Positions 14,816 to 42,677 of a DNA stretch of 42,816 bases are shown here, piece after piece. The notes under the pieces are model-generated. The model was not told the origin of the DNA. It made no database searches and saw only the letters and a program-made list of their open reading frames with translations. Location: assembly GCF_017744135.1 (NCBI RefSeq), contig NZ_JAGHQU010000020.1:1-42816 (forward strand), given 5' to 3'. Position numbers and translations under genes: made by a program. Position 1 is the stretch's first letter, and each line of letters starts with the position of its first letter. The DNA is from Endozoicomonas sp. G2_2 (GTDB lineage Bacteria; Pseudomonadota; Gammaproteobacteria; Nevskiales; Salinisphaeraceae).

Positions 14816-14901
14816 ATCGCCCAAAGTGTCCAGTGCCTCTTGCTGGGTACTCTGGGGCGATCGCAGCCGCAATGAATTCTAAAGAGACACTATTGGGCGA
14901 T
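14816..14901. repeat. 15-bp inverted repeat spanning the gap between two genes
   Basis: Left arm ATCGCCCAAAGTGTC (14816-14830) matches the reverse complement of 14886-14901 with a single-base insertion. The right arm includes the stop codon of the gene at 14890; the left arm lies 5 bp upstream of the ATG at 14811. The 55-nt interior could loop out in RNA, or the arms could be ends of a small mobile or regulatory unit. Confidence 0.55.
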
Positions 14902-15270: not shown

Positions 15271-15293
15271 CGCGTGCTCGACTCAGAGCATAT

Positions 15294-17165: not shown

Positions 17166-17180
17166 GGATAAGCCTGCTGC

Positions 17181-18473: not shown

Positions 18474-18474
18474 A

Positions 18475-19338: not shown

Positions 19339-19407
19339 GAGCCCGGATGATGAGTAAGTCCTACTCCCTCAAAGCGCTCGGGTGTGTAGCGATCTGACGG
19401 AAACAAC

Positions 19408-19431
19408 AAAAAAGCCCCGCAAGAGCGGGGC
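19408..19431 (-). terminator. Rho-independent terminator between two tra operons
   Basis: On the minus strand GCCCCGC-TCTT-GCGGGGC followed by six T residues. It lies directly after the lytic transglycosylase gene and before the TraF-like gene, splitting the transfer region into separate transcripts. Confidence 0.9.
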
Positions 19432-19445
19432 AATCAGAGTTGAAT

Positions 19446-22164: not shown

Positions 22165-22176
22165 CGTCTTCTCCGG

Positions 22177-22662
22177 CTACTCGTGACCGTAGGGCGAGTT
22201 CGGCAGGGCAACGCCGTTGCGTTCCTGCCATTCACCTGGGGCGATCAGTACGGGTTCCATGTGGGCCGGGACCAGCGCGCCGTTGACCACACGCGAGGGC
22301 ATGTGGACGGTATCGACGATAGGTTTCTGCCACACGTATGTCCGCGTGGCGTTCATGCGCCCGCGGAACTCAGCCATGGTGTCGTTGACGCCCTCGCGGT
22401 ATGCGGCCCGGGCCTGCTGGCTTGAGAGCATCCTGTAACCCTCACGGGCTTTCGTGTCCGCTCGCAGCACGCGCTGGATGCTGTCGTGCTCAGTGGAATA
22501 GGGGAGACCTTGATGCTTTTCAGCCCGCGCCTTCTCGATCGCGGCATCCCGTTGCTCGGCGTATCGAAGGCCGGGGTCGGAGACGCATGCAGTCAAGGCA
22601 ACGACCGCGCCGATTAGCGCCGTGGCCTTAGCCGGCCAGTTGATAGTCATAACGCGAGCCAT
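22177..22662 (-). CDS. Lipoprotein of the transfer apparatus (161 aa)
   Basis: Signal peptide with lipobox: hydrophobic ATALIGAVVALTAC, lipidated Cys at residue 26 (ATG at 22650 is an alternative start that keeps the lipobox). The C-terminus PSRVVNGALVPAHMEPVLIA followed by PGEWQ resembles the C-terminus of the lipoprotein at 25953 (IPPYIDKATGRRVDGHWQYA ... SQWQ), so the two may be divergent relatives. The start overlaps the TraC stop by 35 bp. A role in the outer-membrane part of the secretion channel, as with TraV/DotC-type lipoproteins, is inferred from location and context. Confidence 0.65.
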   Translation of the reverse strand: MARVMTINWPAKATALIGAVVALTACVSDPGLRYAEQRDAAIEKARAEKHQGLPYSTEHDSIQRVLRADTKAREGYRMLSSQQARAAYREGVNDTMAEFRGRMNATRTYVWQKPIVDTVHMPSRVVNGALVPAHMEPVLIAPGEWQERNGVALPNSPYGHE

Positions 22663-25459
22663 AGGGAAATTCCTGTGCCAGTTCCAGAATGGCCCGCCGG
22701 CGGGCCTCCTTCGGGGGGATGTTCTCCGCGACTTTTTTATCGATTCGTTCCTGCCGTGCCTTGCGGTCGAGCGGGTGAGTCGATGACAGCCAGAGCGTCA
22801 CGGGATTGGAGTAAAGCCGCACCGCGCCGAAGTAGTTCTTCGATGCTGTCGTGCGAGCGACGTATAGAAACTCGGTGTAGAAGGGCGGCACGCTCAGGTT
22901 GTTTCGCCACAGGCGCTCGGCCTCGTCTTCCAGCTCGAGCAGATCACGCGCGCCGCGACGGTCAGCGGGATTCGAGCCAAGAAAGTAGTAGTGCGAGGTG
23001 TTCGCGCTGATGCCGTCATCGGCCTCGCCTTCGCTCGCCACGATCTTGGCGAAGTCAGAGAGCTTCTGACTGATGAGCGTGATACTGCAGTTGTACTTAC
23101 GCGCTTCGCGATAGACCTGGCCGACCGCGCGGGCGTGTTGCGCCAGCACACGCCATGCCTCGTCGATGATGAGCATCTTGCGCATTTCGCTGGGCAGGCG
23201 GAACTTCATGTACTGGTCGATCTGGGCGAGGATCGAAAGCATCACCACGTCCATCGCCTGACGGTCGGCAAACCGTTCGGTTTCGATCACGATCATGGGG
23301 TTGTCCCAATCAACGTCGAGAGGTCCGTCGAACATCTCGCCGTAGATCCCCGTTTTGAGGAACTCGGTCATACGTCGAACAAGCTGAGTGCCTTCCTCGC
23401 CACGTTGACTTAGCGCTTCGGCAAAGTCGCTGAGCATCAATTCCTGCCCGAGCTGACGCGTGGCGAAGATCTCGATCAGCACGCTCTGAATCAGATTCAC
23501 CGATGCCTTGGGAACCGATTCGGTCTTGCCCCCCTCATCGGCCGTGCCGGACTTACACATCGCCACGATGCTGTCCTGCATCGTTTCGATTTCTTCACTT
23601 GTCGCCTGGCGCGCTTCGGTGCTGCCCTCGACGTCGTTGATGTGCAGAGGGTTCAAACAGATCGGCTTGCGGCCGTCCGGCTGTTCTTGGGCAACGAGAT
23701 AGACGTATTGCCCATCCGTCGATTCGCACAGATCCTCGAAAGAACGGCCCTTATCGATGATGATCGTCTTCGGGGCGTACTGGCTGCGCATCTGCATGGT
23801 GAGCGCGTTGACGAGGAACGACTTGCCCGAGCCGGTACCGCCGACGACCAGTTGGTGCGGCGCCGGCGTCATGTTGGTGAACGGATCCATCATGATCGGC
23901 GTGCCGTCGCTGTTGTTCATCAGCAGTCGGCCGTCCTTCATGCCCGGGAACCCACCATAGAGCGGGACTAGATCGGTCATGTTCGACGACAACATCCCGT
24001 GGGAGCGCCGCAGCATCTGCATGGCCCGAACGCGAAAATTCAGTGGCAATGTCTGGTGCAGGATCGCGTCAGCACGCAGATCCTCGCGGTAACCGCTTTC
24101 CCATAGCAGTGACTCAAGCGCACGCGCGCGGCGGCGCGCTTTTTCCTCGGACGAGTCGCGGCAGCACATATGAATGGCACAGTCGACGACCTTCGTCCGA
24201 GTGTGTTCTTCTGGATTGGTGACGTTGTCCAGATAAGCGATGTCTGCAGCATTCTTCTCCCGCTTGATCGCGTCACCGGCGAAGAAGCCGCGGTTCACGC
24301 CGGCATGATCTTCACTGCTTGACTGTCGGCCCTTACGCAGCCGGATAGCCATCCTGACCTTGCGCTGGTCACGAACCATGAAATTGAAACAACACCAGCC
24401 GGAACCCTCGGTTTCGGACAGGGCGTTCTGGATCAGGTGAGGACTCGGGCGCTCGGCCATGTGCTTGACCGAAGTCACGCGGTAGTAGTGACCATCGATC
24501 TTCCAGCCGTCGTCGTTGGCCTCAACCGACGACATGATCATCCTCGACGACAGCCGACCCTCGGCAACGATCGCGTCCGGGTCGGTGGTGCTCATGATTT
24601 CGCGAAGCGGGGCGCGTCCCGAGTAGCGGGGCGCGCGCTGGCTGAAACTCCGATTGGGATTGAGCATCGAGAACACGAGATCGATCAGACCTTGGCCCGT
24701 CTGTCGCTCGTGGGTGAAACCCATCGCCTGAAGGCTGCGTTCGATGCTATCGACGTGGCCCAGAAAATCATCGCGATGACGCTTGAAGCGGAGGCGGTAA
24801 CGGTTGTCCGAACTCTCGGAGTTCGCAACCGCCCGAATGCGATCCACAGTCTTGGTCAGGACACCTTTCTCGCCGAAGTGCGGGTCCGTCATGAAGACGA
24901 GGAACAAGCGCTGACGCATGGCAAATTTGCCTGAACGCCCGCGAATGCTGTGATCGTTGACCAGATCAGCCGGGTCGATCTGCTCGTCTTCAGTCAGCCC
25001 TTGCGCATTCAGCTCTTCGAATTCGTTGCGCATCTGCTCGATTACGGCGTCCTCTGGAACCGTAGTCAGAAACCCTTGCGAGGCGCCGCGTGACTGCAGG
25101 TCGATGACCGAGTCCTGGATCTCGCGAGCAAACGTCGCGTCACTGCATCTCGATGCGTAGTCCTCGAGAATGTCTCGGTTGTCCGTGCCAGACACTCTCA
25201 GGATCTGGCCGTGGCTCCGATCCGGCATCTGGTCAATCACGTATGCCAGGCCATTCGAAATGGACGCCATGTCGTGGTCGGAGAACCCCTCGCGCGCGAG
25301 TAGACCGATCTCCCAGACCGCGGCCAGACGATAGTCGACCGTGGCGAAAATCTTGTCGCCACTCGAGTAGGCGAAAGCGTCGATCAATTCGGAGAAAGGG
25401 AGGCTTTGCCCGTAATTGAGCTTTTGATAGGCCGCTTCGGTGTAGTCAGCAACGCTCAT
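22628..25459 (-). CDS. traC: TraC/VirB4-type conjugative ATPase
   Basis: 943 aa. Walker A GGTGSGKSFLVNALTMQ lies near residue 540 and Walker B RKMLIIDEAWRVLAQHA near 765, followed by ITLISQKLSDFAKI, the conserved sensor region of VirB4/TraC proteins. The N-terminal half matches the TraC-type domain. These ATPases energise pilus assembly and substrate transfer at the inner membrane. The start overlaps the preceding stop as TAATG. Size is somewhat larger than F TraC (about 875 aa), closer to the GI-type relatives. Confidence 0.93.
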   Translation of the reverse strand: MSVADYTEAAYQKLNYGQSLPFSELIDAFAYSSGDKIFATVDYRLAAVWEIGLLAREGFSDHDMASISNGLAYVIDQMPDRSHGQILRVSGTDNRDILEDYASRCSDATFAREIQDSVIDLQSRGASQGFLTTVPEDAVIEQMRNEFEELNAQGLTEDEQIDPADLVNDHSIRGRSGKFAMRQRLFLVFMTDPHFGEKGVLTKTVDRIRAVANSESSDNRYRLRFKRHRDDFLGHVDSIERSLQAMGFTHERQTGQGLIDLVFSMLNPNRSFSQRAPRYSGRAPLREIMSTTDPDAIVAEGRLSSRMIMSSVEANDDGWKIDGHYYRVTSVKHMAERPSPHLIQNALSETEGSGWCCFNFMVRDQRKVRMAIRLRKGRQSSSEDHAGVNRGFFAGDAIKREKNAADIAYLDNVTNPEEHTRTKVVDCAIHMCCRDSSEEKARRRARALESLLWESGYREDLRADAILHQTLPLNFRVRAMQMLRRSHGMLSSNMTDLVPLYGGFPGMKDGRLLMNNSDGTPIMMDPFTNMTPAPHQLVVGGTGSGKSFLVNALTMQMRSQYAPKTIIIDKGRSFEDLCESTDGQYVYLVAQEQPDGRKPICLNPLHINDVEGSTEARQATSEEIETMQDSIVAMCKSGTADEGGKTESVPKASVNLIQSVLIEIFATRQLGQELMLSDFAEALSQRGEEGTQLVRRMTEFLKTGIYGEMFDGPLDVDWDNPMIVIETERFADRQAMDVVMLSILAQIDQYMKFRLPSEMRKMLIIDEAWRVLAQHARAVGQVYREARKYNCSITLISQKLSDFAKIVASEGEADDGISANTSHYYFLGSNPADRRGARDLLELEDEAERLWRNNLSVPPFYTEFLYVARTTASKNYFGAVRLYSNPVTLWLSSTHPLDRKARQERIDKKVAENIPPKEARRRAILELAQEFPYGSRYDYQLAG

Positions 25460-25971
25460 TAGGATCCTCGCGGTCCGTAGACCATGATCAGTCGAGATTC
25501 AGGAAATATCGTGATCGGGATGTGCATGCGTTCGGTCAGCCATGCGACGACGTCGGCCACCTCGTGCTCACCGCGAATGGCATGTGGTACCAGTTGGCCT
25601 CGCACCCAGGGCGCAACGAAATGCGGTTGGTACCCCAGCGAGCGTGCGAGCGTGTCGATTACGATGCCCAGAGGCGTGTTCTCGGCGAAGAACAGCTGCA
25701 CATCCGCCGAATCCAAGCCACCCGACGTGTTCGGGATATCTGTCTCATTCGCCAAGCGCATCTGATTACGGATGCGTTGGGCATCAGGTTCGCGGTTGGT
25801 CGCATGAGGGGCCTGGAAGTAGTTCTGGATCACCTGATTACGAATGGCGTCCTTGCTGATTTCATCGATACCGCTGTGCAAGCCCCCCTTGCCGGCGTGC
25901 CAGGGGGACGCATTGACCGGTAGGCTCATTGCCAGGCCCAGGCCTGCAGCAATCAGTAGTCGAGCTGCCAT
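25459..25971 (-). CDS. DotD-like periplasmic protein with secretin-N-type domain (170 aa)
   Basis: Signal peptide at residues 1-21 (MAARLLIAAGLGLAMSLPVN then A). The C-terminal 75 residues, VQLFFAENTPLGIVIDTLA onwards to MHIPITIFPESRLIMVYG, look like the N0/N1-type fold of DotD and secretin N-domains: helix, strand, then a paired helix before a final strand. In Dot/Icm-type systems DotD sits in the outer-membrane core complex. No lipobox is visible, unlike Legionella DotD. It overlaps both neighbours, between a lipoprotein and TraC, a location fitting core-complex assembly. Confidence 0.6.
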   Translation of the reverse strand: MAARLLIAAGLGLAMSLPVNASPWHAGKGGLHSGIDEISKDAIRNQVIQNYFQAPHATNREPDAQRIRNQMRLANETDIPNTSGGLDSADVQLFFAENTPLGIVIDTLARSLGYQPHFVAPWVRGQLVPHAIRGEHEVADVVAWLTERMHIPITIFPESRLIMVYGPRGS

Positions 25972-26291
25972 TGCGACTCCTTGATGACGGCGTACTGCCA
26001 GTGCCCATCGACCCGACGGCCGGTGGCCTTGTCGATATACGGCGGGATCCAGATGGGCATCACGGTTTCAGGCTGACGGATCGGTATGACCGGGTCAGAG
26101 GTTCCGGCTGCGGCTTGAGCCTGCAGGCCTTCACGGACCAGACGAACCGTGTCGCGCGCGCCCTGCTGTGTGACGCCGCTGTAAACCTCTTCGATCGAAG
26201 GCCCGACAATCGTGGGCCCCTTGGAGGCGCACCCGGTCAAAAGAGCCAACGCAGTCAACGCTGCGAATGCGCCGACGGTCTTATTGGACAT
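25953..26291 (-). CDS. Lipoprotein in the TraV position (112 aa)
   Basis: Lipobox ALALLTGC with Cys at residue 21. The mature part has a helical segment (IEEVYSGVTQQGARDTVRLV) and a C-terminal motif PIWIPPYIDKATGRRVDGHW then KESQWQ, similar to the end of the lipoprotein at 22177. TraV lipoproteins cap the VirB7/9/10-type core complex and are encoded next to TraB, as here; it is shorter than F TraV (about 170 aa) and lacks the usual two Cys in its middle. It overlaps TraB and the DotD-like gene. Confidence 0.65.
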   Translation of the reverse strand: MSNKTVGAFAALTALALLTGCASKGPTIVGPSIEEVYSGVTQQGARDTVRLVREGLQAQAAAGTSDPVIPIRQPETVMPIWIPPYIDKATGRRVDGHWQYAVIKESQWQLDY

Positions 26292-27807
26292 TGCTTACCT
26301 CGGCATTTGAATTCTTGGCCAGATATTCGAAAGGTGTGGTGGTGATCATCGTCATGGGCAGGCCCGCCTGGATCCGCACGACTGGGATGATTCGAGCGGC
26401 CTGACGGTCATAGAACTCGGCGATCCGGCCGAAAGCCTCGCCGAATGCATCACCTGCAACCGCTGCAGGGATATTTCCCCCATCAATCGAACGCGCACTT
26501 CCGACACCGCCAGCCGCGCCGCCGCCAAAGATCTGCGTGTTGAACTGCGAATCGGAGAACACTTCGCCAGCAGCACTCATGCCTGCGGCGAACGAGGCGA
26601 GAGCGATCTCGCGGCCGCTGGCCTGGTCCAGGTAACCGGCAACGCCCATTTGATTGTCACGACGGTCGATCAGGTAGCCATTGATCGGGATGAACTGGGG
26701 CTTGCCATCGGGACCGACGTAGCTCAGACGTTCGATCTTCACGATGGCAGCGGGCCGATTCGATTCCTGGCCGACACAGGTGCCCGAGACGTGCGGCGAA
26801 CCCATGTGATAGGTGGTGCCGTTAGGGCCGTGAAATTCGCCTTTGACGGGCAGCGTGATGGGGACTTCGGAAAGAAGGGCGCGCGGGCCGTCACCGCCAC
26901 GCTGGCCCGACGCGTTTGCAACCGGGCAGGCAACCCCGTGCAGATCGGTAACGTGCACCCAGGAGTTTCCAGGCACAGTGATGCTGTCGTACTCCGGCTT
27001 CACTTCAACCACATCGCCCGTCAGCGGACTCATCGCGCCACCGGCCTCAGATGGCGGCGGCGGTGGCGTTGAGGTCGAGACCGGGCGGTTGGTCGCGGTA
27101 CCAGAGCGCGAGCTAGAGGGGCTGCTGAACAGACCGCCGCTGGACTCTGCTGGCTGGGAACGCGCGCCAAGTTCCATATACGGGAACGCGTTATCGGGCT
27201 TGGCTTGGCCCTTGGTCGTCGTGCTGGAGGGCTGGTCATCAAGCGCGGGCAGGCCAGAAGTGCTTACGGTGCCGCCTTCGGGTTTCTGTCCGCCCAGCAG
27301 GGCATCCCGTTCTTCCAGAATGCGATCTTCGCCTTGGCGCTCAATAGCATTCGTGAGCTGGCTGAGCTTCTCCTCGACCGAGTTTTGAAGCTGCGCCATG
27401 TCACGTTGGCTATTACGCGTGTTCTCGTCGAGCGAGCGCCTGAGCTGCTCGATGCGCTCGTTCGCCGCGTTGACGCGCCGATCTACCGCAACAACAGACG
27501 ATTCATTCGTGCGGTCATCGATGTTGAACGCCTCATCGACACCACTCTGGGCGATCTGATCCTCAGTGCGGCGCTGCTCTGCGCGCTCGCGATCGAAAGT
27601 CGTGGTCCGATCAGAATCGCGTTGCTGTACCTGTCCGCTGTTCGCACTCTGCGACTGGTCGTCGTCACCGGTGATAGCAGCGAACGTCTTCCAGACAAGC
27701 AAGCCGATGACGATCGCAACGACCGCTATCTTTACCGGGCTGCGACCTTTGTTCTCACCCTCACCGGCCGGGTCGGCATGCATGAGCTCGTCGTTATCTC
27801 GTGCCAT
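26281..27807 (-). CDS. traB: TraB/VirB10-type core-complex scaffold protein
   Basis: 508 aa. Short cytoplasmic N-terminus, a membrane span at about residues 30-50 (VKIAVVAIVIGLLVWKTFA), a coiled-coil region (about 85-165, including NERIEQLRRSLDENTRN), a Pro/Ser-rich stretch (about 235-275), and a C-terminal TrbI-type beta-barrel domain with KIERLSYVGPDGKPQFIPIN and DRRDNQMGVAGYLDQ. TraB spans from inner to outer membrane in the secretion channel. The start at 27807 overlaps the TraK stop by 14 bp; the longer frame to 27873 would extend deeply into TraK. Confidence 0.88.
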   Translation of the reverse strand: MARDNDELMHADPAGEGENKGRSPVKIAVVAIVIGLLVWKTFAAITGDDDQSQSANSGQVQQRDSDRTTTFDRERAEQRRTEDQIAQSGVDEAFNIDDRTNESSVVAVDRRVNAANERIEQLRRSLDENTRNSQRDMAQLQNSVEEKLSQLTNAIERQGEDRILEERDALLGGQKPEGGTVSTSGLPALDDQPSSTTTKGQAKPDNAFPYMELGARSQPAESSGGLFSSPSSSRSGTATNRPVSTSTPPPPPSEAGGAMSPLTGDVVEVKPEYDSITVPGNSWVHVTDLHGVACPVANASGQRGGDGPRALLSEVPITLPVKGEFHGPNGTTYHMGSPHVSGTCVGQESNRPAAIVKIERLSYVGPDGKPQFIPINGYLIDRRDNQMGVAGYLDQASGREIALASFAAGMSAAGEVFSDSQFNTQIFGGGAAGGVGSARSIDGGNIPAAVAGDAFGEAFGRIAEFYDRQAARIIPVVRIQAGLPMTMITTTPFEYLAKNSNAEVSNVQ

Positions 27808-28609
27808 GGAGGGTGCGCCGGTTACGATTGGAAACGATGTAGACCAGTCCCTTGTTCTGTGCACGCGCGGCATCAGCTGCGAACTCAGGGGCGGGGTCGA
27901 GGCGAAAATCTGACGGCATCATCGAGATTTCGCGCACGTGGCCAAATTGCTCGATCAGTTCACGTGAGCCGAACTCGATGTTGTCGATGGCCACGCGAAA
28001 CGGAGTGCGGCCACGGTTTACCGCGAGAAGCACAATGCCTGTATCCCCACCCGCGCCGCGCCAAGTCTCCTCGAGGTAGAAAGCGACCGAGCCTTGCTCG
28101 AGAACAAGCCGCTGCTGCGGGGAGCCTGTGGCCTTCTGGATCTGGTAGCCGGAAGGCGTCGCGCCGCTCACCATGTACTTGATCAGGCGCTGCTTGCCGG
28201 GTTCGCGACCTTCGTCGCCGGATCCCACATGCTTCTGCGCTAGTGCCGGCGACTCATCGACGACGGAAACAGTGCCGTCAGCACAGGCACGCTCGATGAC
28301 CTGCAGGCGGTATGAGTTGCCCGAAGCGCTCTGTACGAGCACCTGCGCGTTGTAGGACTGGCCGTCTTCCTCAGTCTTGATGAAAATGCGGTCAGGAAAT
28401 GCAGCTTGATTGATCGAGATCCCTGCGGGCTGCTCGGGCAGCAGACCTCGCAACGCTTCAGGGAATTTAACCTCGGCGTACTGATCGTCAGCTGCGTAAA
28501 CCGGCACAGCGCGGCCTTGATAGACGGTGACCCGATCGGTGCGATCACAGGCTGACCATGCCAGCGCAGGTGATGCTGCGACGAGTAAACCTAGCGCCCA
28601 ACGCCTCAT
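27794..28609 (-). CDS. traK: TraK/VirB9-type secretion-channel protein
   Basis: 271 aa with signal peptide MRRWALGLLVAASPALAWSA. The remainder is strand-rich with two Cys in the mature part (SACDRT and ERACADG), and the C-terminal half (GIVLLAVNRGRTPFRVAIDN) is like the secretin-type fold of TraK. TraK is the VirB9 analogue that joins TraB and TraV in the core complex. Position between TraE and TraB is the invariant order in F- and GI-type systems. The start overlaps the TraE stop as ATGA. Confidence 0.82.
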   Translation of the reverse strand: MRRWALGLLVAASPALAWSACDRTDRVTVYQGRAVPVYAADDQYAEVKFPEALRGLLPEQPAGISINQAAFPDRIFIKTEEDGQSYNAQVLVQSASGNSYRLQVIERACADGTVSVVDESPALAQKHVGSGDEGREPGKQRLIKYMVSGATPSGYQIQKATGSPQQRLVLEQGSVAFYLEETWRGAGGDTGIVLLAVNRGRTPFRVAIDNIEFGSRELIEQFGHVREISMMPSDFRLDPAPEFAADAARAQNKGLVYIVSNRNRRTLHGTR

Positions 28610-29223
28610 AGTTTTGTCTCCGTGATGCCGGTCACCCAGAGGCCAGCAGGGCGAGCCTCGGTCGGCGTGACTTTTTCCAGTCGCACAGCGATCTCGACTC
28701 GATAGGTCGTGTCATACGACGTCGCGACATAACGCTCGACGCGGCCGCGCATGCGGTAGAGATACCCAGTGTCACTCTCCTCCAGACCAGATTCCTGGAG
28801 GATCGTCGTCTTCTGGCTCAACTGGAGGTTCTGTATCCGCTCGGCCAGGTCACGCAGCTGACGGGCAACACCAACGGCCTTACCCGGCACAACCATGTTG
28901 GCCGCGCGTTTGAAATTCGCCTCGACGGTGTCGGCGTCGTAGTTGAAGCGGTTCGAAACGAAGTCTCGGGCATATCGCTTCACTGCTGCCGGCGGACGAC
29001 GACGCGATGAAACCAACACGCCGTCTTCGTCCGGGAATGCGTACATGATCCGGTTGTTCGCCAGCTTCGTGTTCTGGGCATTCATGCTGAGCAGCGCAGC
29101 GCCCATCGCGACAACGGTGAGGATCAGGATGATCACCATCGCGACAAGGCCGAGAAAAAGACGCGTGTTGGAGCGTTCATAGCCGACCAGCGGTGATTCC
29201 CAGTCGAAGTCTTTGGTCGCCAT
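28606..29223 (-). CDS. traE: TraE/VirB8-like inner-membrane assembly protein
   Basis: 205 aa. The N-terminal cytoplasmic part (MATKDFDWESPLVGYERSNT) precedes one span (about 25-48, LFLGLVAMVIILILTVVAMG) and a periplasmic domain ending in RVEIAVRLEKVTPTEARPAG then LWVTGI, which resembles TraE. The start was placed at 29223 because it lies 2 bp after the TraL stop. TraE nucleates assembly in the inner membrane. The order TraL-TraE-TraK-TraB supports the assignment. Confidence 0.82.
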   Translation of the reverse strand: MATKDFDWESPLVGYERSNTRLFLGLVAMVIILILTVVAMGAALLSMNAQNTKLANNRIMYAFPDEDGVLVSSRRRPPAAVKRYARDFVSNRFNYDADTVEANFKRAANMVVPGKAVGVARQLRDLAERIQNLQLSQKTTILQESGLEESDTGYLYRMRGRVERYVATSYDTTYRVEIAVRLEKVTPTEARPAGLWVTGITETKL

Positions 29224-29225
29224 AA

Positions 29226-29588
29226 TCAGGGCTCGTATCGTTTCGATGCGCCCGGGGCCGGGGGGAGGCCGCAGCTTCCCCACGCCCGACTGAGCAGCGG
29301 TTGCAGAAACGGCAGATAACGCCGTGCAAAGGGGGACTCAGATGCACTTGAGGCCCAGAACGCGACAAAATTCGGCATACGGCCGGCGCTGGCCTTTTCG
29401 TACGCGTAGGCCAGTACGAGCGCGATCAGCGTGGCCTTGCCCATGCCCAGCATCGGCTTGCCGATGGCGATGATTGCCACCACGATGCCGGCGGTCTCCA
29501 TTTGCAAGCCGAACGCCTTGAGCGGGGCCAGCGAATAGACGGGGCAGCGTCTGCTGCCCCAGTCAAAGTTGTCGCGAGACTCGTTCAC
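29226..29588 (-). CDS. traL: TraL-like membrane protein (120 aa)
   Basis: The N-terminal 25 residues are cytoplasmic and polar, followed by hydrophobic stretches around residues 29-45 (METAGIVVAIIAIGKPMLG) and 50-65 (KATLIALVLAYAYEKAS). TraL-type proteins are about 95-105 aa with this hydrophobic pair and a conserved tail containing P and Y-P segments; here the tail is ARRYLPFLQPLLSRAWG. Both ends overlap or abut neighbours (ATGA with the pilin-like gene). Assignment relies largely on position. Confidence 0.65.
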   Translation of the reverse strand: MNESRDNFDWGSRRCPVYSLAPLKAFGLQMETAGIVVAIIAIGKPMLGMGKATLIALVLAYAYEKASAGRMPNFVAFWASSASESPFARRYLPFLQPLLSRAWGSCGLPPAPGASKRYEP

Positions 29589-30007
29589 GTGTTGGTCCGC
29601 TCAACGATCTCCATGCCACCGACCTGAAGGATCCACTGAACAGCCCACTCGCCGAAGCCGCCGATAATGGCAACAGCTGCGCCGATGTAGACCCACTTCG
29701 CGCCGAGGCCGAAGACGAGGCAGACGATCGCGACGATGGCGCCGATATAGACTGCCGAGTTAGCGACGATTCGCCAGATGGTGTAGAACGAGCTGACGAT
29801 TTTTTCCGAGTCGGCATCATCGATCCCGAAATCGAGATTCGGGTTGTCGGCGAATGCCAGCATCGGCAGGAACCAAAGCGCCACCATGACCATTAGCGAT
29901 CGGTTCACCCGGTTCCAACGGTCCAAAGTGGCGGCACTCATCGTGTTATTTCCCACTGCGAGCGGGGCGTCCGGCCGGCGGCCGGTAAACAGTTCATAGA
30001 CAGACAT
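29585..30007 (-). CDS. Pilin-like small membrane protein (140 aa)
   Basis: ATG 30007 has GGAG seven bases upstream and is preferred over the ATG at 30019. The protein has a hydrophobic segment (about 30-50, SLMVMVALWFLPMLAFA) whose end looks like a signal-peptidase site (AFA), followed by a short mature region and two spans (about 85-105, VYIGAIVAIVCLVFGLGAKW, and 105-125, VYIGAAVAIIGGFGEWAVQW). That layout, leader plus two spans, is the plan of TraA/VirB2 pilins and of the GI-type pilin-region proteins. It is longer than F pilin. Confidence 0.65.
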   Translation of the reverse strand: MSVYELFTGRRPDAPLAVGNNTMSAATLDRWNRVNRSLMVMVALWFLPMLAFADNPNLDFGIDDADSEKIVSSFYTIWRIVANSAVYIGAIVAIVCLVFGLGAKWVYIGAAVAIIGGFGEWAVQWILQVGGMEIVERTNT

Positions 30008-30042
30008 TTTCTGCTCCATTGGTGGAGGTCACGGCACGGGTT

Positions 30043-30462
30043 TCAGTTGGTCGGTGCATCCGTTGCCCGCGGGGCGCCGGGCACGAAGTAGTCAGCAGAC
30101 GGTGTGAGTGTTTGGTACTCGAGGCGACGCCGCTCCGGCATCAGCACAGGCGAGAGCTGACCGTTCAGGTACTGCAGGTCGTCGAGGAACAGGTCATAGC
30201 GAAAGCCCGGCAACGCGTAAGACGTGCGCGCGGCCTGCACTTCGCGTGCGGCATTGGCGAGCAGCTGCTGAGCACGCGATAGGTGTTCGAACGCCCGTTG
30301 GTAGAGCGGATTGCGTTGATCGATTCGCGGTATCGAGCCGAAGTCCTGAGCCGGGTAGCGATCGCCACGCTGACCCTGCTGGGCGTGCGCCGGCAGTGCC
30401 AGGCAAAGCGTCACAGCCAGGGTCGTAATGACGCCAGTCAGGGCGGTCTTGGTGAGTGCCAC
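30043..30462 (-). CDS. RAQPRD-like periplasmic protein, first gene of the main tra operon
   Basis: 139 aa from a GTG at 30462, with GAGG seven bases upstream. Signal peptide MALTKTALTGVITTLAVTLC, cleavage after AHA. The mature part is a helical pair with Arg-rich heptads (FEHLSRAQQLLANAAREVQA, about 62-81) followed by RYDLFLDDLQYLNGQLSPVL. This layout and position, just before the pilin and TraL genes, recall the small RAQPRD family of GI-type integrative elements, although the RAQPRD signature itself is not visible. Function is unknown but linked to pilus formation. Confidence 0.55.
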   Translation of the reverse strand: MALTKTALTGVITTLAVTLCLALPAHAQQGQRGDRYPAQDFGSIPRIDQRNPLYQRAFEHLSRAQQLLANAAREVQAARTSYALPGFRYDLFLDDLQYLNGQLSPVLMPERRRLEYQTLTPSADYFVPGAPRATDAPTN

Positions 30463-30484
30463 GGTCGATCCTCATGTCTCGGTT

Positions 30485-30501
30485 ACCCCTACAAAGGGGG
30501 T
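30485..30501. promoter_or_regulatory. Copy 2 of the near-palindromic operon-head motif
   Basis: Plus-strand ACCCCTACAAAGGGGGT, 22 bp upstream of the GTG at 30462. Matches copy 3 (35522-35538) at 14 of 17 positions. It sits at the head of the main tra operon, after the terminator at 30616. Confidence 0.6.
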
Positions 30502-30615
30502 CCGAGTGGAGCATCTGACCGGGATTTCCGAAATATTCTGAAAATTAGTGAATTGGCGACGATCTGGCGGGGTTGAGTAGGGAAACGATGCGAGTGCGAT
30601 CTGCCGACCTGAACG

Positions 30616-30648
30616 AAAAAAGCCGCCGAGAGGGTGCCCTCGGCGGCT
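30616..30648 (-). terminator. Rho-independent terminator after the TraD operon
   Basis: On the minus strand AGCCGCCGAG pairs with CTCGGCGGCT around an 8-nt loop and is followed by six T residues. It separates the TraD/RecD-like operon (ending at 30671) from the pilin-to-TraC operon. Confidence 0.9.
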
Positions 30649-30670
30649 CTGCGTGGGATGCGGTCAGGAT

Positions 30671-31105
30671 CTATCGGTAGATATCACACACACCGACCTG
30701 ATCTTTTCTGAGCCATTCGAGTTCGGGATTCGAGGTGATGGTGAAATTGCTGTACTGAGGATTGAACAGTGCCCCCTTCGGCGCACGCGAGCGTATGCGG
30801 CCGATGAACGCGACTTTTACGTTGTCGCTGCCGATCTGTTCCACTGTTCCAACGTAGTTGCCCCAGGTGCAAACGCGGTCGCCAACGGAAAGGGGGGCTG
30901 ACGACGCCCGTTCGAAGTTGCGCTTCGCTACTGCGTCGGCCTTTCGCTTCTTATCTGCCTTCGCTTTGGCCCAAGAATCGGAATTCGCCACATATTCTTG
31001 CTGGGCACTGACTACTTGGGGCTCTAGAGCGTTCATCCACTCAGCGGCCTCCAGCACGTTATCGAAACTGGAGTTGGTCACTCCGAAACTGTCGGATGGA
31101 TTCAC
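30671..31105 (-). CDS. Hypothetical protein at the end of the TraD operon (144 aa)
   Basis: The annotated start is a GTG without a ribosome-binding site. The reading frame stays open for about 100 bp upstream with coding-like sequence (EIIDILDDRPYRHL) but no standard start codon, so the true N-terminus is unknown. The protein has a helical part (NVLEAAEWMNALEPQVVSAQ), a Lys-rich linker (AKADKKRKADAVAKR) and a C-terminal SH3-like strand segment (APLSVGDRVCTWGNYVGTVE). The C-terminal module looks like a small beta-barrel binding domain. Family not recognised. Confidence 0.6.
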   Translation of the reverse strand: MNPSDSFGVTNSSFDNVLEAAEWMNALEPQVVSAQQEYVANSDSWAKAKADKKRKADAVAKRNFERASSAPLSVGDRVCTWGNYVGTVEQIGSDNVKVAFIGRIRSRAPKGALFNPQYSNFTITSNPELEWLRKDQVGVCDIYR

Positions 31106-31179
31106 CAGGTGCCGGTAGGGGCGATCGTCCAGAATATCGATGATTTCGGCCGCCAGCCAAGCGCCGCAAGTGTCTATTT

Positions 31180-31542
31180 TTAATTCGGTCTGTTCTTGCG
31201 ATAGTCACGGAACATACGCGCTGAATCGCGAACTCGAGCGAAGAAGAAGCGGTTGACCATCAGGCCCAGCCAGCTCACCACCAGGCCGACCATCGTCATC
31301 GCGACATAGACGATCGCGCCCCAAGATCGCGAGAGCATATTCGACGTCCAGTGGTGCGTCAGATCGAGCGAGAGGCCCACGAACACGACGAATAAAAACA
31401 GGCCGACATAGGCTGGCCAGCCAATGGTGTCGAGGTAGTACCAGGCGGTATCCATCCAGTGATCCCACAGATCCCATAGGTTCCAATCCCAGTGACGCAG
31501 GGAATTGACCCAATCGTTATCGGTCCATTGAAACTCAGCCAT
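31180..31542 (-). CDS. Small Trp-rich membrane protein next to TraD (120 aa)
   Basis: It begins MAEFQWTDNDWVNSLRHWDW; the first 40 residues contain eight Trp. Two membrane spans follow, about 43-60 (AYVGLFLFVVFVGLSLDL) and 73-95 (GAIVYVAMTMVGLVVSWLG), with a basic C-terminal tail. It lies 2 bp after TraD and is co-transcribed. GI-type elements also keep a small membrane protein beside TraD, which may anchor or assist it; homology to that protein is not shown. Confidence 0.6.
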   Translation of the reverse strand: MAEFQWTDNDWVNSLRHWDWNLWDLWDHWMDTAWYYLDTIGWPAYVGLFLFVVFVGLSLDLTHHWTSNMLSRSWGAIVYVAMTMVGLVVSWLGLMVNRFFFARVRDSARMFRDYRKNRPN

Positions 31543-31544
31543 GA

Positions 31545-33371
31545 TCAGACCCTCGCGGCTTGCAGCAGCGTGTTGTGTTCCTTGTCGAGGAGCTTGGTGG
31601 CGAGATTCAGCCCCGGCTTCGCCGCACGCTCGTAGCGGGGAAGGGTGATCTCGTCGAGGTTGGGCACATCGCCTTCGAAGCGCACCCGCGGTAGACGCAG
31701 CCGATACGTGCCCTGTTTGCCGATCAGGATTGCGTCACCGGCGTCCATGGCGAAGTCCTCCGGGTTGAGAAGGTCTTCACGCATTTCCCTATAGCCGTCC
31801 GACATCGTCTGACCGTGGGCCTCTGTGCGCAGCAGGCCGGACTCCCAGTTCTTGTAGTTCGAGCCGAAAGACGTGCCCATGTTCTTCTGGCGGAACTGGT
31901 TGATGACCGTGCCAGCGAGTTTGATGGCCGTGTCGCGCGTATCGGGATCACGCACGTCGAGATAGACATGGTTCCAGGCGTTGGTAAGGATGTTCGCCGT
32001 GAACTCTTTGCCGATCTTGTCGAGGAAGCCGCGGCCCTGCACCGAGCAGATCATCGATATGCCGGCGCCGCGCGCGGCCATGAACAGCTCCTCGTGGGTC
32101 TCGTCCGCGAACGACCCGTACTCATCGAGAAAGACCAGGTAGGGCAGCATGGCCTTGGTGCGGTCAGCGTAGAGCTGGCCGACCGCCCGCGACAGGTCAG
32201 CCAGAAACAGCCGACCGAATACCTCGACACCCTGTTTGTCCGAGAGCGCCGGCAGCGAAATCATGACGATCTTGGATTCGAGAATGCAGCTCTTCAGCTC
32301 GATATCCGGGTTGTAGTCGTTGATCAGCGCGCGGTACTCGCTATGGCAGAAGTCCATCAGCAATGAGCGCAGGCCGGTCAACAGATCGCGAAAGCGGTTG
32401 TAGTTGAGCTGCTGCACCCCGTCCTTGTCCGGCGAAATCCAGCCGATCAGGTACTGCATCACGAACTCACGCTCTTCCTGCATGTGCGCGGGCATCTGCG
32501 CGTAGTAGTCGATGAACAGACGCGGCTGCGAGATCAAGGCTGCGAGATCAGCGAAATTGAAGCGCGGATCGCCGGGCTGACAGCGTAAGCAGATGATCGC
32601 GGCGATCAGGGTGTTGCGGTTAAGGCGAGACCAGAACTCGTTATCGCCGCTCTTGCCGCCGCCTTCGAGCTTCATCGCCGTCGATACGAGCTGACGCACG
32701 GAACCATGAATGAGCGGGTTGTAGCTGTGCGACAGATCCGGGCGGTCGAGGTTGAGGTACATGCAGTCGTGCTCACGATGATGGTCGCGCGCCATCGTGT
32801 AGAGCTCGGTGAACATGCCTTCGTCGCCCTTGGCGTCGAACATGATCAGGCCACCACCGCGCCGGATCTGGCCATAGGCCATCGACTTATACATCTCCGA
32901 TTTGCCGACACCCGTCGAACCGCCTACGAAGACGTGCCGGGTCGCGATATCGTCGGTCAGGAACAGCGGCCGCATCCGGTGAATCACCTTTCGGTTATAG
33001 GCGACACGGTCGTCTGTTGTGATCTGCCCCTTGAGCGCCTGAATGCGTGCCAGACCTTCGCGATACGAGGTGAAATCCATCGCATGGCCGACATAGAGAT
33101 GATTGATCAGGCTCGGTTCTGAGGGCGTCTGGAAGCGATACATGCTGTCGATCGCCGGGGGCTGGCTCGAGCGCACACGCAGACGCTGAGCCAGACCCGC
33201 GAACAAGCCCACGGGTAAGCCGACAAGCGCGACGACGGGCAGCAGATGCATGGGCACGAATGGTGTGGCCAGTGCCACCGCCATCGGCACGATGAGCAAG
33301 GCAAGGCGCGCGCGCCCCGCAGATGCAATGCGGTCATCCAGCGTCATGCTGGAAGCGGTTCGAGCGCTCAT
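31545..33371 (-). CDS. traD: TraD/VirD4-type coupling protein
   Basis: 608 aa. Two membrane spans at the N-terminus (about 20-60), then an AAA+ motor: Walker A FVGGSTGVGKSEMYKSMAYG near residue 148 and Walker B MLPYLVFLDEYGSFADE near 415. Coupling proteins bring the relaxase-DNA complex to the secretion channel and pump DNA. The start overlaps the RecD-like gene's stop as ATGA (33371-33368). Length matches SXT/GI-type TraD rather than F TraD (717 aa), which has a long acidic C-terminus for relaxase binding. Confidence 0.93.
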   Translation of the reverse strand: MSARTASSMTLDDRIASAGRARLALLIVPMAVALATPFVPMHLLPVVALVGLPVGLFAGLAQRLRVRSSQPPAIDSMYRFQTPSEPSLINHLYVGHAMDFTSYREGLARIQALKGQITTDDRVAYNRKVIHRMRPLFLTDDIATRHVFVGGSTGVGKSEMYKSMAYGQIRRGGGLIMFDAKGDEGMFTELYTMARDHHREHDCMYLNLDRPDLSHSYNPLIHGSVRQLVSTAMKLEGGGKSGDNEFWSRLNRNTLIAAIICLRCQPGDPRFNFADLAALISQPRLFIDYYAQMPAHMQEEREFVMQYLIGWISPDKDGVQQLNYNRFRDLLTGLRSLLMDFCHSEYRALINDYNPDIELKSCILESKIVMISLPALSDKQGVEVFGRLFLADLSRAVGQLYADRTKAMLPYLVFLDEYGSFADETHEELFMAARGAGISMICSVQGRGFLDKIGKEFTANILTNAWNHVYLDVRDPDTRDTAIKLAGTVINQFRQKNMGTSFGSNYKNWESGLLRTEAHGQTMSDGYREMREDLLNPEDFAMDAGDAILIGKQGTYRLRLPRVRFEGDVPNLDEITLPRYERAAKPGLNLATKLLDKEHNTLLQAARV

Positions 33372-35521
33372 GCGGCCTCGCTATTCTGGTGGTCCTTGAT
33401 CAACTGCGCGAATCCAGACCAGACCTCCGGCCGTCGCCGGGTCAGTGCCTTGGTAAAGGCCTCGGCGTCACCGATCACGATCAGGTGGCGCTGTGCTGCA
33501 CACGCGAGCGTGTAAAGCATGACCTGGTGGGCAAGTATCGGGTGCGTGTTCTCCGTCATCACCAGGATCACGGCATCCGCACGTTCGCCCATCAGCATTG
33601 ACATAGATCGCATGCCATCGCGCTTCAGGCGTTTCTCTGCGTTGGCTGGAAGCTCGACAGTCGAACTCATTGGCTCGCCCTGACGATCGATGCGGGTGAC
33701 TTTTATGGGTGGCCGGTCACGATCGATACGCACCCGGTAGCCCGCCTTGAGCCCCACGCTGTTGATGTCCTCCACGACACAGGCATGCCGGTCTTTACGC
33801 AGGGCGTATGTCTGGCCAGGGCTCTCACCGTGACGTTTCCCAAGCCATTCGCGCACGAGCGTGGCGTCAGACTCTCCCGACAAACTCGGGAGCATGAGCA
33901 GGCTGTTTTCGAGTTCGAGGCCGGGCAGGACGTGTTCGTAGACGTCATCCAACAACGCGCCGATCGCAGAAGACGGGCACTGGAGCATGCTGATCGGGCC
34001 GTCGAGGTTGTCGACCCAGTCCGCAGGATCGCAATGCCCCGCCCAGGCGGCCCCGATGGCTCGGGCAGGTGCTGCATTGGCGCTTAGCGACTGGGCTTTG
34101 TAGCAGGCCAGACGCTCGGTAAGCACCAGATCGAGGTAAGGGTGGCCAGGAGCAAGGGACGGCTGGCAGTAGATGTCACCCATCAAGATGAGGCCGCAGT
34201 CGTCGGGGATCGCTGCACACAGATCGCGCAGGCGCTCGATACCGAGCTGTTCGGCGTGGGTGACGATGATGCACTCGGCATCGATCGGCGCGTCTGGTCC
34301 GGCACCCGGCTGACGATCGTCGTCGTATGCCAGACACGATGAAAGGCTCAGGGCAGTGAGGCCGTCGCTGGCTTCGTTGAGAATTTCGGCGTGTAGCGCG
34401 TCCGCGGAGCAGACCACGCAGGACACGGAAAGTGCATCGAACAGATGGGCCAGCGACACAACCACCGCGTCATCGTCGCCGGCGCGAGGTATGTCGATCA
34501 CGCACGCCGCGTGGGAGAGGGCGAATTCACAGATCGCCCGGTGATGATCGAGAATCCGTGGGCGGCCCATCGCCTGCATCGCGCCATCGATGCCCACCCA
34601 GTCGGTCGCCGATTCGTAGGCGGTGTCGTGACACTCGATACGGTCAATCGCCTCGAGCGCACGTAGCTCGGCGTCGTAGAGGCGAGGCAGGTAGATCCGT
34701 TCACCGATACGTGCCAGACGTGCGTCGAGCACGATGTTGTCCAGCGTCTTTTCTATGGCGGCTTCGGTGAGATGGTGGCGAGCCAGCATGCGAGACAAAC
34801 GCGCGACCAGCTTGTCCTGCGGCACATAGGTATGCCCAAGCGTACACATCAGTCGAACGCGGCGAAGGATCAGTGCCCTCAGACGCGGTAGACCGGCCGG
34901 GTCGGCACCGTGAGCCTCGGCATAGCGCTCGACCGGGGTAAAGTCGACCGTGTCGTCGAGTACATAGGCCAGATACGGATTGGCCGATAGTTCGTCGGCA
35001 AGCCGTTCAAAATCCCCCGCAAACGATGATTCGAGCCGTTCCGTCTGGACGCTCGATAGGCGCATGCCGGCCATGATCGAGCGCGCACGATGTTGCAGTC
35101 GTGCAGCTTTCCAGGCGCTATCCATCACGCCCACGGTGACCGCATCGAGGCCTGGGATCTCGTTGAGCCGCTCGGGATTCTCATCGAGCACCGTGGTCGT
35201 GCGATCGCCGAACCGGGACACGATTAACGACGCGATAGAGCTATCGCAATCCAGCGCCTGCTGCAGGTAGCGGATCAGACCCTGGGCGTCGGTCGGCGGC
35301 GATGATTCAACCCGGTCGGCGTAGAACACGCACGCCGGCGGGGGATGATTCGACCAGTAGCCGGCCAGCACCACCCGTTCGCCCACATAAAGCGCCTGCG
35401 TTTCGCAAAGCGCGTTGAAAGCGCGGCCCTGTTCGGTCTGAATCGTGAGGATGCACCGACCGGTGCCTGGTGAGCGCCAGGCAACCTCTGTCAGCGTTCC
35501 GGAGATACGTTCACTGTCCAT
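33368..35521 (-). CDS. RecD2-like protein with degenerate helicase motifs
   Basis: 717 aa from ATG 35521; a GTG at 35590 would add 23 residues. The N-terminus has an OB-like domain (SGTLTEVAWRSPGTGRCIL) and a helical domain with NPERLNEIPGLDAVTV, as in RecD2. Where Walker A (GPPGTGKT) is expected the sequence is VIDIPRAGDDDAVVVSL, and the Walker B site reads CIIVTHAEQLGI instead of VDE. The motif-VI region reads HQVMLYTLACAAQRHLIVIG instead of YTAITRA(R/K). It therefore keeps the fold but probably not the ATPase. It begins the TraD operon, so a structural role in DNA processing for transfer is plausible. Confidence 0.7.
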   Translation of the reverse strand: MDSERISGTLTEVAWRSPGTGRCILTIQTEQGRAFNALCETQALYVGERVVLAGYWSNHPPPACVFYADRVESSPPTDAQGLIRYLQQALDCDSSIASLIVSRFGDRTTTVLDENPERLNEIPGLDAVTVGVMDSAWKAARLQHRARSIMAGMRLSSVQTERLESSFAGDFERLADELSANPYLAYVLDDTVDFTPVERYAEAHGADPAGLPRLRALILRRVRLMCTLGHTYVPQDKLVARLSRMLARHHLTEAAIEKTLDNIVLDARLARIGERIYLPRLYDAELRALEAIDRIECHDTAYESATDWVGIDGAMQAMGRPRILDHHRAICEFALSHAACVIDIPRAGDDDAVVVSLAHLFDALSVSCVVCSADALHAEILNEASDGLTALSLSSCLAYDDDRQPGAGPDAPIDAECIIVTHAEQLGIERLRDLCAAIPDDCGLILMGDIYCQPSLAPGHPYLDLVLTERLACYKAQSLSANAAPARAIGAAWAGHCDPADWVDNLDGPISMLQCPSSAIGALLDDVYEHVLPGLELENSLLMLPSLSGESDATLVREWLGKRHGESPGQTYALRKDRHACVVEDINSVGLKAGYRVRIDRDRPPIKVTRIDRQGEPMSSTVELPANAEKRLKRDGMRSMSMLMGERADAVILVMTENTHPILAHQVMLYTLACAAQRHLIVIGDAEAFTKALTRRRPEVWSGFAQLIKDHQNSEAA

Positions 35522-35538
35522 ACCCCCATAAAGAGGGT
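35522..35538. promoter_or_regulatory. Copy 3 of the near-palindromic operon-head motif
   Basis: Plus-strand ACCCCCATAAAGAGGGT, directly abutting the ATG at 35521. If this start is right, the motif would overlap the ribosome-binding region, and binding of a protein or folding of RNA could control translation as well as transcription. Confidence 0.55.
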
Positions 35539-35562
35539 GGCTGTGTTGCGATCGGCTTTCTG

Positions 35563-35591
35563 AGTGCTTTAATTGGTTTAAGAAAAGCACT
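35563..35591. promoter_or_regulatory. Dyad between divergent genes
   Basis: AGTGCTTT (35563-35570) and AAAGCACT (35584-35591) are perfect 8-bp inverted repeats with a 13-bp AT-rich spacer. They lie between the divergent starts at 35521 and 35733; an operator is the simplest reading. Confidence 0.45.
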
Positions 35592-41364: not shown

Positions 41365-41430
41365 TAAAGCGCACCCCGAACAGCAATCACGCGTAACACC
41401 CAGGCACCAACACCCATCCAATAATGAAGA

Positions 41431-41450
41431 TTTTATATCATCCTACACAG
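41431..41450 (-). promoter_or_regulatory. Ter-like site 3 (minus orientation)
   Basis: The minus-strand sequence CTGTGTAGGATGATATAAAA differs from the two plus-strand copies by one base in the core and one at the end. It faces the opposite way, 10 bp upstream of the possible ATG at 41421. Its TATAAA could be the -10 of the divergent gene. Confidence 0.65.
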
Positions 41451-41637
41451 CGCCCCGCCACCCAAGGCGGGCTGCCCACCCTCGAGTCCTATCTTATCGG
41501 CATCGGTGGCCATATCTGACCCCGTTTTTGCCGAACCTGCGAAGCCGAAAAAAACAGGGGAAAAAAAGGGGGAAAACCGCGACAAGATCGGGGCGCCGTT
41601 CCGTGAGGGTTCGGCACGGCGTGGTAGGTGGTGGTGG

Positions 41638-41658
41638 CTGTGTAGGTTGATATAAATA
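41638..41658 (+). repeat. Ter-like site 1
   Basis: A 21-bp sequence repeated exactly at 41737-41757. Its core GTAGGTTGATATAAA resembles the E. coli Ter consensus (G-T-A-N-GTTG-N-N-A-N-N-A-A), sharing GTA-x-GTTG and the A-rich end, though not the inner C. Confidence 0.7.
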
Positions 41659-41736
41659 TCGGGCTTGGGGTGGGGCGTTTGGGCTGTAAGGGTAGGGTGC
41701 ATATAGTGGATTGGGAGACGAACAAAGCCGCACGGT

Positions 41737-41757
41737 CTGTGTAGGTTGATATAAATA
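41737..41757 (+). repeat. Ter-like site 2, overlapping the tus promoter region
   Basis: Exact copy of site 1, 99 bp downstream in the same direction and 14 bp before the tus-like ATG. In E. coli TerB overlaps the tus promoter and Tus represses itself; the same layout is seen here. The TATAAAT inside can act as a -10. Confidence 0.7.
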
Positions 41758-41771
41758 ATGCGGGGGTAGGG

Positions 41772-42677
41772 ATGGACGACATCGCGACAATCAAGGCTGA
41801 GATCGCCCAGGCGGCGCGCGCGCTGGAAGGGTGGGTGCGTGAGTTCAACGATGCCCTGGCCCTGTATGCCGCCGACTGGCCCGCAGTCTGCTACGCGATC
41901 GAGCGCTTCAATCCCGACATGCCCCAACAGGCACTCACGGTGACGCGCAGTGTCGGCGAGCCGGCACGTTTGAACGCCCGCGCGATCTTCGCGGCGATCG
42001 ACTACGCGCCCGAGCAGTCACCGAACACCGTGCGACGCATGGCCGGTGTCGTGTGCGCGCCACGCGAGGTGCTGCCGGCACTCGATGGCCTCAACGCCGC
42101 GAAAGAGGCGCTCAAGACGTCGGTGGGCAAACTGCCGCGCGGTCGCTGGCAGCGTGAGCGCGCCAGCATGTCGCGGGCGGCGACTCTGTCACTGCTGCAG
42201 GCCTACCGGCGGGTGCGGGTGCTGCCGGATGGGGCATCGCGTGTGAGCTTCACGTGGGATCGCCACGGCGCGTCCGGCCGGCGCCTGACTGTTGCCCAGG
42301 CGCGCGAGCTGGTCCAGGCGCCGGGCTATCACGGCCCGATTTCACAGGCCCGCCAGAACATCGAACGCGCCGCGCTCGTGGATCTGCCCGAAACCGAAGT
42401 GCTGCTCCAGCGCAAGCCGATCGCACCGACGCCGGCGGCCAATGTCTGGCTCACGCCCGACGCGCGCCCGATCGCCTTCCGCGTGGACATGCCGGTGGTG
42501 GTGATCACCGATGCCCCCGAGCAGGCGCCCAAGATCTACGATCTCGAAGACTTCGATCCGCAGACGCCGGCACGAAAGACCCGCTCGGATCGGCGGGTGG
42601 AAGATCAGCCCCTGATCGAGCGGCTGCATCTGTATCGCTACACCGCGGCCTGGCGCGGCTCTAACTCGCGCAACTGA
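41772..42677 (+). CDS. tus: Tus-like replication-terminator (Ter-binding) protein
   Basis: 301 aa, against 309 in E. coli. Colinear matches to Tus as remembered: [20 protein letters not shown] with [39 protein letters not shown] with [39 protein letters not shown] with [26 protein letters not shown] with TPLIALIN; and [11 protein letters not shown] with LIIPRLHLYVA at the end. Tus binds Ter sites as a monomer and blocks forks from one side. The residues aligned with the cytosine-flip pocket of E. coli Tus (F140, H144, G149) do not seem conserved, so fork locking may work differently. GGGGG precedes the ATG. Confidence 0.75.
   Translation: [301 protein letters not shown]

Follow-up and report, generated by a model that had tools for sequence, protein, structure and literature searches.

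A diverged Tus relative with its own Ter-like sites is predicted to form a narrow replication fork trap on a conjugative element of Endozoicomonas sp. G2_2

The Ter sites of E. coli have the consensus GNRNGTTGTAACKA; their G-rich side is non-permissive to replication forks and their A/T-rich side is permissive. The cytosine pocket of E. coli Tus comprises I79, F140, H144, G149 and L150. The terminus of plasmid R6K was reportedly described by Horiuchi and Hidaka in 1988 as a pair of polar terminus sites that form an inverted repeat. These sites are about 73 bp apart, and R6K relies on the Tus of its host and on E. coli-type Ter. According to the available part of PMC6312765, most theta plasmids lack a termination site, R6K being among the exceptions. 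The terRL and terRR sites of plasmid R1 adjoin the origin and enforce unidirectional replication, and E. coli tus is autoregulated (both from the available part of PMC10331603). As described in the accessible sections of PMC8707476, the type I trap of Edwardsiella tarda is chromosomal, with two opposed Ter sites 56 kb apart, and the narrowest trap given there in the account of fork traps is 18 kb (Dickeya paradisiaca). The tus gene has been recorded on mobile plasmids and on a Pseudoalteromonas chromid (available parts of PMC6549158, PMC7858055 and PMC10331603); ter sites of this chromid are stated as not found in the excerpt of PMC7858055 and are marked with a question mark in that of PMC10331603. 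In the argument of Galli and colleagues, the tus genes of chromosomes derive from plasmids, and the accessible portion of their paper names resident tus only in Enterobacterales, Pseudoalteromonas and Aeromonadales (PMC6549158).

The window analysed here is a stretch of 42,816 nucleotides from Endozoicomonas sp. G2_2, contig C12 of a 33-contig, 3.73-Mb draft genome. As the contig stops shortly past tus, the replicon is taken as incomplete, and neither an origin nor an initiator could be recognised on the contig. The presence of a conjugation block places the tus cassette on a conjugative element. Conjugation genes lie between tus and parM in the window, on the plasmid of locus L004 and on two IncC-type plasmids. 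The features of the window are as follows.

10617..11567, plus strand: ParM-like actin homologue (profile search)
12747..35590, minus strand: conjugation block (profile search)
22628–25459, minus strand: TraC/VirB4-like gene of the conjugation block
31545–33371, minus strand: TraD-like gene of the conjugation block
33368–35590, minus strand: RecD2-like gene of the conjugation block
41432..41451 (core 41432–41446), minus strand: left Ter-like site, predicted by the polarity rule to block leftward forks
41452..41637, no strand: trap interior of about 186 bp, bounded by the innermost facing sites (site geometry)
41547..41576, plus strand: purine-rich tract in the trap interior (run score 27, as against a mean of 9.6 in shuffles)
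41638..41658 (core 41642–41656), plus strand: first right Ter-like site, predicted to block rightward forks
41737..41757 (core 41741–41755), plus strand: second right Ter-like site, 21 bp identical to the first right site
41772..42677, plus strand: Tus-family protein of 301 aa (PF05472 profile, Foldseek, alignment to E. coli Tus)

Elsewhere in the window, an IS1595-family transposase gene (2353–3264) adjoins an ORF (1783–2319) with a Panacea antitoxin-like domain, and a DnaG-like primase ORF (7204–8517) scores under its family cut-off.

The locus resembles R6K in having two facing plasmid terminus sites at a very short distance. Unlike R6K, the window plasmid has a diverged Tus of its own and sites of a different sequence, one of them at the start of tus. 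Plasmid-borne polar terminators that fix the end point of forks, predicted in the window, are shared with R1; the R1 sites lie by the origin, whereas no origin was recognised in the window. With E. coli Tus/TerB the locus has in common the protein family, a site close upstream of tus and, by the polarity rule, a G-rich side predicted to be non-permissive, but the proteins are 19% identical, F140, H144 and G149 are not conserved and the site sequence diverges after GNRNGTTG; the predicted trap of about 190 bp also stands against a chromosomal terminus region in E. coli. The trap of Edwardsiella tarda is comparable in consisting of just two oppositely oriented sites, but it is chromosomal and spans 56 kb as against about 190 bp.

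The initial annotation, made from the sequence without database searches, regarded the gene at 41772 as a tus homologue, and a Pfam search bears this out: the 301-aa product of 41772–42677 matches PF05472 with 66.8 bits (gathering cut-off 22, E 2.2e-18). Solved Tus structures are matched by sequence at E of about 1.5e-4 over residues 137–288. Structure comparison agrees, as Foldseek ranked four Tus entries (4xr1, 4xr2, 4xr0 and 1ecr) first to fourth for the predicted model, each with probability 1.00 and TM about 0.5; the fifth match had a probability of only 0.10. The predicted model is modest (mean pLDDT 73.2, pTM 0.64), and the Tus fold of the protein is supported overall, without fine detail. 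The cut-offs of the E. coli-type Tus equivalogs are missed (TIGR02648, 32.8 against 178.3 bits; NF002810, 57.2 against 323 bits). Tus matches were found in two of 100 related genomes, the window's own and G055, and in none of the 13 other genomes of the window's genus. Class-wide, 11 of 369 genomes match Tus, 10 of them above the cut-off, with the window's own genome counted. The phage collection contains no relatives of the protein, and viral_contigs no confirmed ones.

The motif GTAGGTTGATATAAA occurs exactly at 41642–41656 (+) and 41741–41755 (+) and with one mismatch at 41432–41446 (−). With up to three mismatches allowed, these are the only three matches in the window; 100 shuffles average 0.19 matches, with a maximum of 1. 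Two identical 21-bp sites and a reversed near-copy facing the first of them had been noticed initially, and both descriptions hold: the plus-strand copies (41638–41658 and 41737–41757) agree in 21/21 positions, the first of them forms an inverted repeat with the minus-strand copy across 20 bp at 95%, and the orientations run minus, then plus. Searched as GTAGGWTGATATAAA with up to two mismatches, the three sites are the sole matches in the genome of 3,729,773 bp, and the reversed control gives 0. The 15-bp core of the second right site (41741–41755) stops 16 bp short of the tus start codon (41772), so that a Ter-like site precedes tus by less than about 50 bp; this site is a probable operator and back-up barrier. 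No DNA-level relatives of the upstream region were found in PLSDB, and in viral_contigs the window motif matched 25 stretches, once in each and never as a pair. By eye, the plus-strand sites agree with the E. coli consensus at 8 of 12 specified positions, which would not be convincing taken alone.

The upstream regions of 59 tus loci were compared: that of the window, 14 chosen loci (L003–L008 and L014–L021; hand-picked for diversity from the PLSDB listing, plus L003) and 44 loci from genome_contigs, retrieved with a Pseudomonas/Azotobacter alignment and in many cases so closely related that they are not independent events. Loci L144–L147 stand outside the 59. The search zone comprised the last 500 bp before tus; the starts of L052, L067 and L075 were estimated via partial matches. 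A strict core, derived from the same upstream regions, is arranged minus-then-plus at 30 loci, as minus only at 12, plus only at 5 and two minus at 2, and is missing from 10; L071 was scored as minus only and has a weaker plus-strand core at −27. Six of the 10 loci without the core (the window, L003, L004, L015, L018 and L020) have a diverged facing pair found in an inverted-repeat search, with 16–18 of 18 positions matching, the best of 40 shuffles per locus being 15/18. Altogether, a facing pair is present at 36 of the 59 loci, in identical order in all 36, sites are confined to one strand at 19, and no site was recognised at four (L005, L016, L019 and L067). Per 1000 strand-bases, this core, which was not independently chosen, is counted 1.365 times upstream of tus and 0.031 times in the downstream flanks, where it is about 44 times rarer.

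The two arms of a pair co-vary, as expected if one protein reads both. Arms were compared for 33 of the 36 loci with a pair, a length rule having excluded L050, L074 and L075; they agree within a locus at 7.76 of 11 non-core columns as against 4.71 between loci (permutation p 0.0002), and 18 diverse loci also give p 0.0002. The comparison was anchored on TG, hence T12 and G13 are invariant; Ter position 10 is G in 64 of 66 arms and position 16 is A in 58 of 66. E. coli TerB likewise has G and A at positions 10 and 16.

Eleven plasmids were covered in full or almost in full (W05 to 320,000 of 321,600 bases, W09 to 240,000 of 240,256), and on 10 of them the facing pair represents the sole strong sites. 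The pair is the best match on W01, W02, W05, W07, W08, W09, W10 and W11, with runner-up matches at 4 or more mismatches of 18, and on W13 and W14, with runner-up matches at 3–4 mismatches of 14. The Xenorhabdus plasmid (W12, L145) has no local pair; a plus-strand site lies at tus and a minus-strand site 25 kb off, and with an additional plus-strand match 68 kb away, the arrangement is wider than the others. W03, W04 and W06 were covered by pattern search only.

The P. luteola plasmid (W03, L092) has a second facing pair at 93,799–93,964 (about 3800–3970 of L092), far from the annotated tus, which encloses a pyrimidine/purine tract; by eye, none of the six ORFs of at least 150 aa in the 8-kb stretch there is Tus-like, and the pair is perhaps a remnant of a fused replicon. 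On the Pseudoalteromonas chromid (L015, W06), facing GTATGATGTGTTC-type sites are located at tus (665,834–666,023), and four further plus-strand copies with at most one mismatch lie rightward of the pair. Ter sites of the chromid were not found according to the available part of PMC7858055; the facing GTATGATGTGTTC-type sites and the further copies are candidates, predicted from their sequence, for those missed there. In P. oryzihabitans YY7 (L059, L060), the chromosome and a plasmid each have a tus accompanied by sites, making two Tus systems in one strain.

The polarity of a related motif can be read on the chromosomes of P. oryzihabitans, where dnaA was used as the origin marker. The exact 12-mer AGGGGTGGTATT has 16 copies on each of G451 (via L055) and G452 (via L059), with a reversed control of 0. 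On G451 (dnaA, 1.61 Mb; dif, 3.98 Mb), the rightward arm from dnaA to dif contains nine minus-strand copies and the other arm seven plus-strand copies. On G452 (dnaA at 3.75 Mb, dif at 1.42 Mb), the numbers are 10 minus and 6 plus. Since a trap must admit forks from the origin to dif, the A/T-rich side must be the permissive one, and by this reckoning 16 of 16 copies on G451 and 16 of 16 on G452, 32 of 32 together, are permissive from dnaA to dif. Both chromosomes have dif enclosed by the innermost sites, and tus, with a single neighbouring site, lies no more than about 10 kb from dif. Leading strands are usually G-rich, and the strand bias of AGGGGTGGTATT is opposite to that expected from this general rule. 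P. oryzihabitans appears to have an undescribed chromosomal Tus–Ter fork trap. Two drafts in contigs were left out of the polarity score (G453, 3 plus and 11 minus; G454, 6 plus and 11 minus). On contig C11 of G454, dnaA and dif are just 436 kb apart on one scaffold, unlike a symmetrical chromosome, which may be due to an assembly fault or an odd chromosome.

The polarity test rests on Pseudomonas relatives with 24–30% identity to the window protein. The assumption of the initial annotation that the GTA side is the blocking one agrees with all 32 related-motif copies being permissive towards dif. Applied to the window, the rule from P. oryzihabitans predicts that forks enter 41452–41637 both ways and run into a non-permissive face on their way out. 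The fork-trap reading proposed initially is likewise supported, as a prediction, by the facing pair upstream of 36 of 59 tus genes together with this 32/32 polarity.

The pocket positions I79, F140, H144, G149 and L150 of E. coli Tus align with Y, E, M, T and L in the window protein, so that the initial remark on differing pocket residues is supported, with F140, H144 and G149 aligned to E, M and T. L150 is the sole E. coli pocket residue kept, although single positions are doubtful at 19% identity. In the same alignment, F140, H144 and G149 are all kept in Tus of the Pseudoalteromonas chromid and of the A. hydrophila plasmid, F140 and H144 in that of Marinobacter, and F140 and G149 in that of IncC. 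Where they align with Ter position 6, the window sites show the G, with C opposite, that the E. coli lock requires; 48 of 66 arms of the 33 pair loci, window included, have no G there. As the pocket is mostly not conserved, the E. coli lock is not to be assumed for the window protein.

The main rival explanation is that the Tus relative acts as a repressor and the sites as operators of tus and of the divergent gene, without a fork stop. It accords with a mostly non-conserved pocket and with the spacing of the sites: among the relatives, the plus-strand site, where present, is usually situated no more than about 75 bp from the tus start, and the minus-strand site is 11 bp from the start of the divergent ORF in the window, 7 bp in L017 and 27 bp in L004. 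At other loci, however, the minus-strand site is about 900 bp (L008) or about 1 kb (L006) away from the divergent gene, and L018, L021, L146 and L147 have an upstream neighbour in non-divergent orientation. An operator function would also leave the uniform polarity of the related motif across both chromosomal replichores unexplained. Regulation without fork arrest is consequently regarded as improbable, at odds well below those of a trap.

The divergent ORF of the window (40486–41421, TTG start) has no Pfam or PLSDB match and is therefore not a secure gene. It was rejected as a conserved neighbour, since it does not resemble the L004 gene that follows tus and lacks a PLSDB match. The initial annotation had also placed likely −10 boxes of the two genes over the sites; the sites do contain TATAAA, yet a sigma-70 scan of 41350–41800 returned no promoters, and the overlap is unproven.

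The interior of the trap was searched for other elements. No folded structure is indicated (DNA fold z −0.51), and an Rfam search of 41300–41900 gave no match. The purine tract at 41547–41576 reaches the p floor of 300 shuffles. Of 19 intervals 120 bp or longer, 15 reach this floor with a purine run on the strand of tus, the window included, and the IncC interval (L018) has a pyrimidine run on that strand instead of a purine one; among shorter intervals, 5 of 17 reach the floor, with runs of 11–16. The tract was accordingly discarded as a universal feature of such traps.

The direction of replication was considered through GC skew. On the mutually related IncC-type plasmids W08 and W11, the longest cumulative rise of GC skew begins between parM and mobI and terminates 195 bp (W08) or 1.8 kb (W11) before the left site. 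The repB initiator gene of W08 lies about 1.3 kb past the start of the rise; in W11 the initiator is outside the stretch covered. This suggests that the IncC-type plasmids have one long and one short replication arm, both ending at the pair. GC skew does not mark the trap on nine other plasmids (W01, W02, W05, W07, W09, W10, W12, W13 and W14): on W01 it climbs almost steadily round the whole circle, giving a maximum at any chosen start, W09 and W10 show reversals away from the trap, and W02, W05, W07, W12, W13 and W14 have their extremes elsewhere. As a general trap marker it was rejected, fitting just the two related plasmids. In the window, third codon positions are G-rich on the plus strand in 13 of 15 ORFs, a hand selection of the larger ones, including all 11 minus-strand genes; this fits forks arriving from the left, the other side being absent from the contig.

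A second rival supposes that a replication origin or partition site lies between the paired sites, the protein modulating initiation and not termination. Genes of this kind do occur near tus, namely repB (L006), partition genes (L007, L014 and L017), replication protein A (L015) and an initiator with parA (L146 and L147), and a purine tract is common in the interval. On the IncC-type plasmids, however, the skew minimum lies 15–18 kb off and the maximum near the pair, no recognised initiator stands beside the pair on the window contig, and the chromosomal copies encircle dif, not dnaA. A role at an origin is very unlikely on this evidence. The last rival, that the repeats have nothing to do with the Tus relative, which binds other DNA or none at all, can draw on the match to the E. 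coli consensus at only 8 of 12 positions, but it is the least credible of all, given that the sites are unique in the genome, the arms co-vary and the layout recurs beside distant tus genes.

The analysis establishes that the protein belongs to the Tus family, that the three sites are present, unique in the genome and oriented as described, that the layout recurs and that the related motif is polar on related chromosomes. The explanation preferred here, with a probability of roughly 0.8, is that the window protein, bound to the three sites, forms polar barriers at which plasmid replication ends, prevents over-run and limits its own expression from the last site. The cassette of the conjugative plasmid would be a self-contained terminator, made up of a diverged tus with its own Ter sites upstream. 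With the Tus relative on the three sites, a fork reaching the A/T-rich side of a site would pass and one reaching the G-rich side would halt. Owing to the facing left and right sites, forks could enter the interval of about 190 bp either way and would find no exit; the trap would thus set the end of plasmid replication and keep forks off DNA already copied. As the last plus-strand site abuts the tus start codon, bound protein would presumably curb its own synthesis, and the doubled plus-strand site may serve as a back-up against forks coming from the transfer-gene side.

A broader reading is offered tentatively, at somewhat less than even odds: the facing pair with tus may be an ancestral, portable cassette that chromosomes have captured, with pocket-free arrest in the branch to which the window and the Pseudomonas plasmids belong. 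Many large gammaproteobacterial plasmids would then carry a facing Ter pair with its own tus, and chromosomal traps, such as that of P. oryzihabitans, would have arisen by capture and spreading of sites. If forks are arrested without the cytosine pocket, polarity would rest on a different protein–DNA contact. The purine tract of wide traps may, in the same reading, help to finish replication.

Close inverted terminus pairs are already known from R6K. Plasmid-borne Tus was set aside as a novelty, being recorded 1070 times in PLSDB and described in the accessible part of PMC6549158 (Galli 2019), and autoregulation of E. coli tus is known as well (available part of PMC10331603). Neither Ter sites for the plasmid Tus branches compared here nor the facing pair that recurs next to tus on plasmids is reported among the open-licence PubMed Central matches listed, and the same holds for a Tus–Ter trap in P. 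oryzihabitans. The apparent trap of P. oryzihabitans falls outside the clades named for resident tus in the available part of PMC6549158. Tus proteins like that of the window may arrest forks without the E. coli lock. Candidate sites for several Tus branches, together with their layout and a polarity rule, make the plasmid-to-chromosome origin of tus directly testable.
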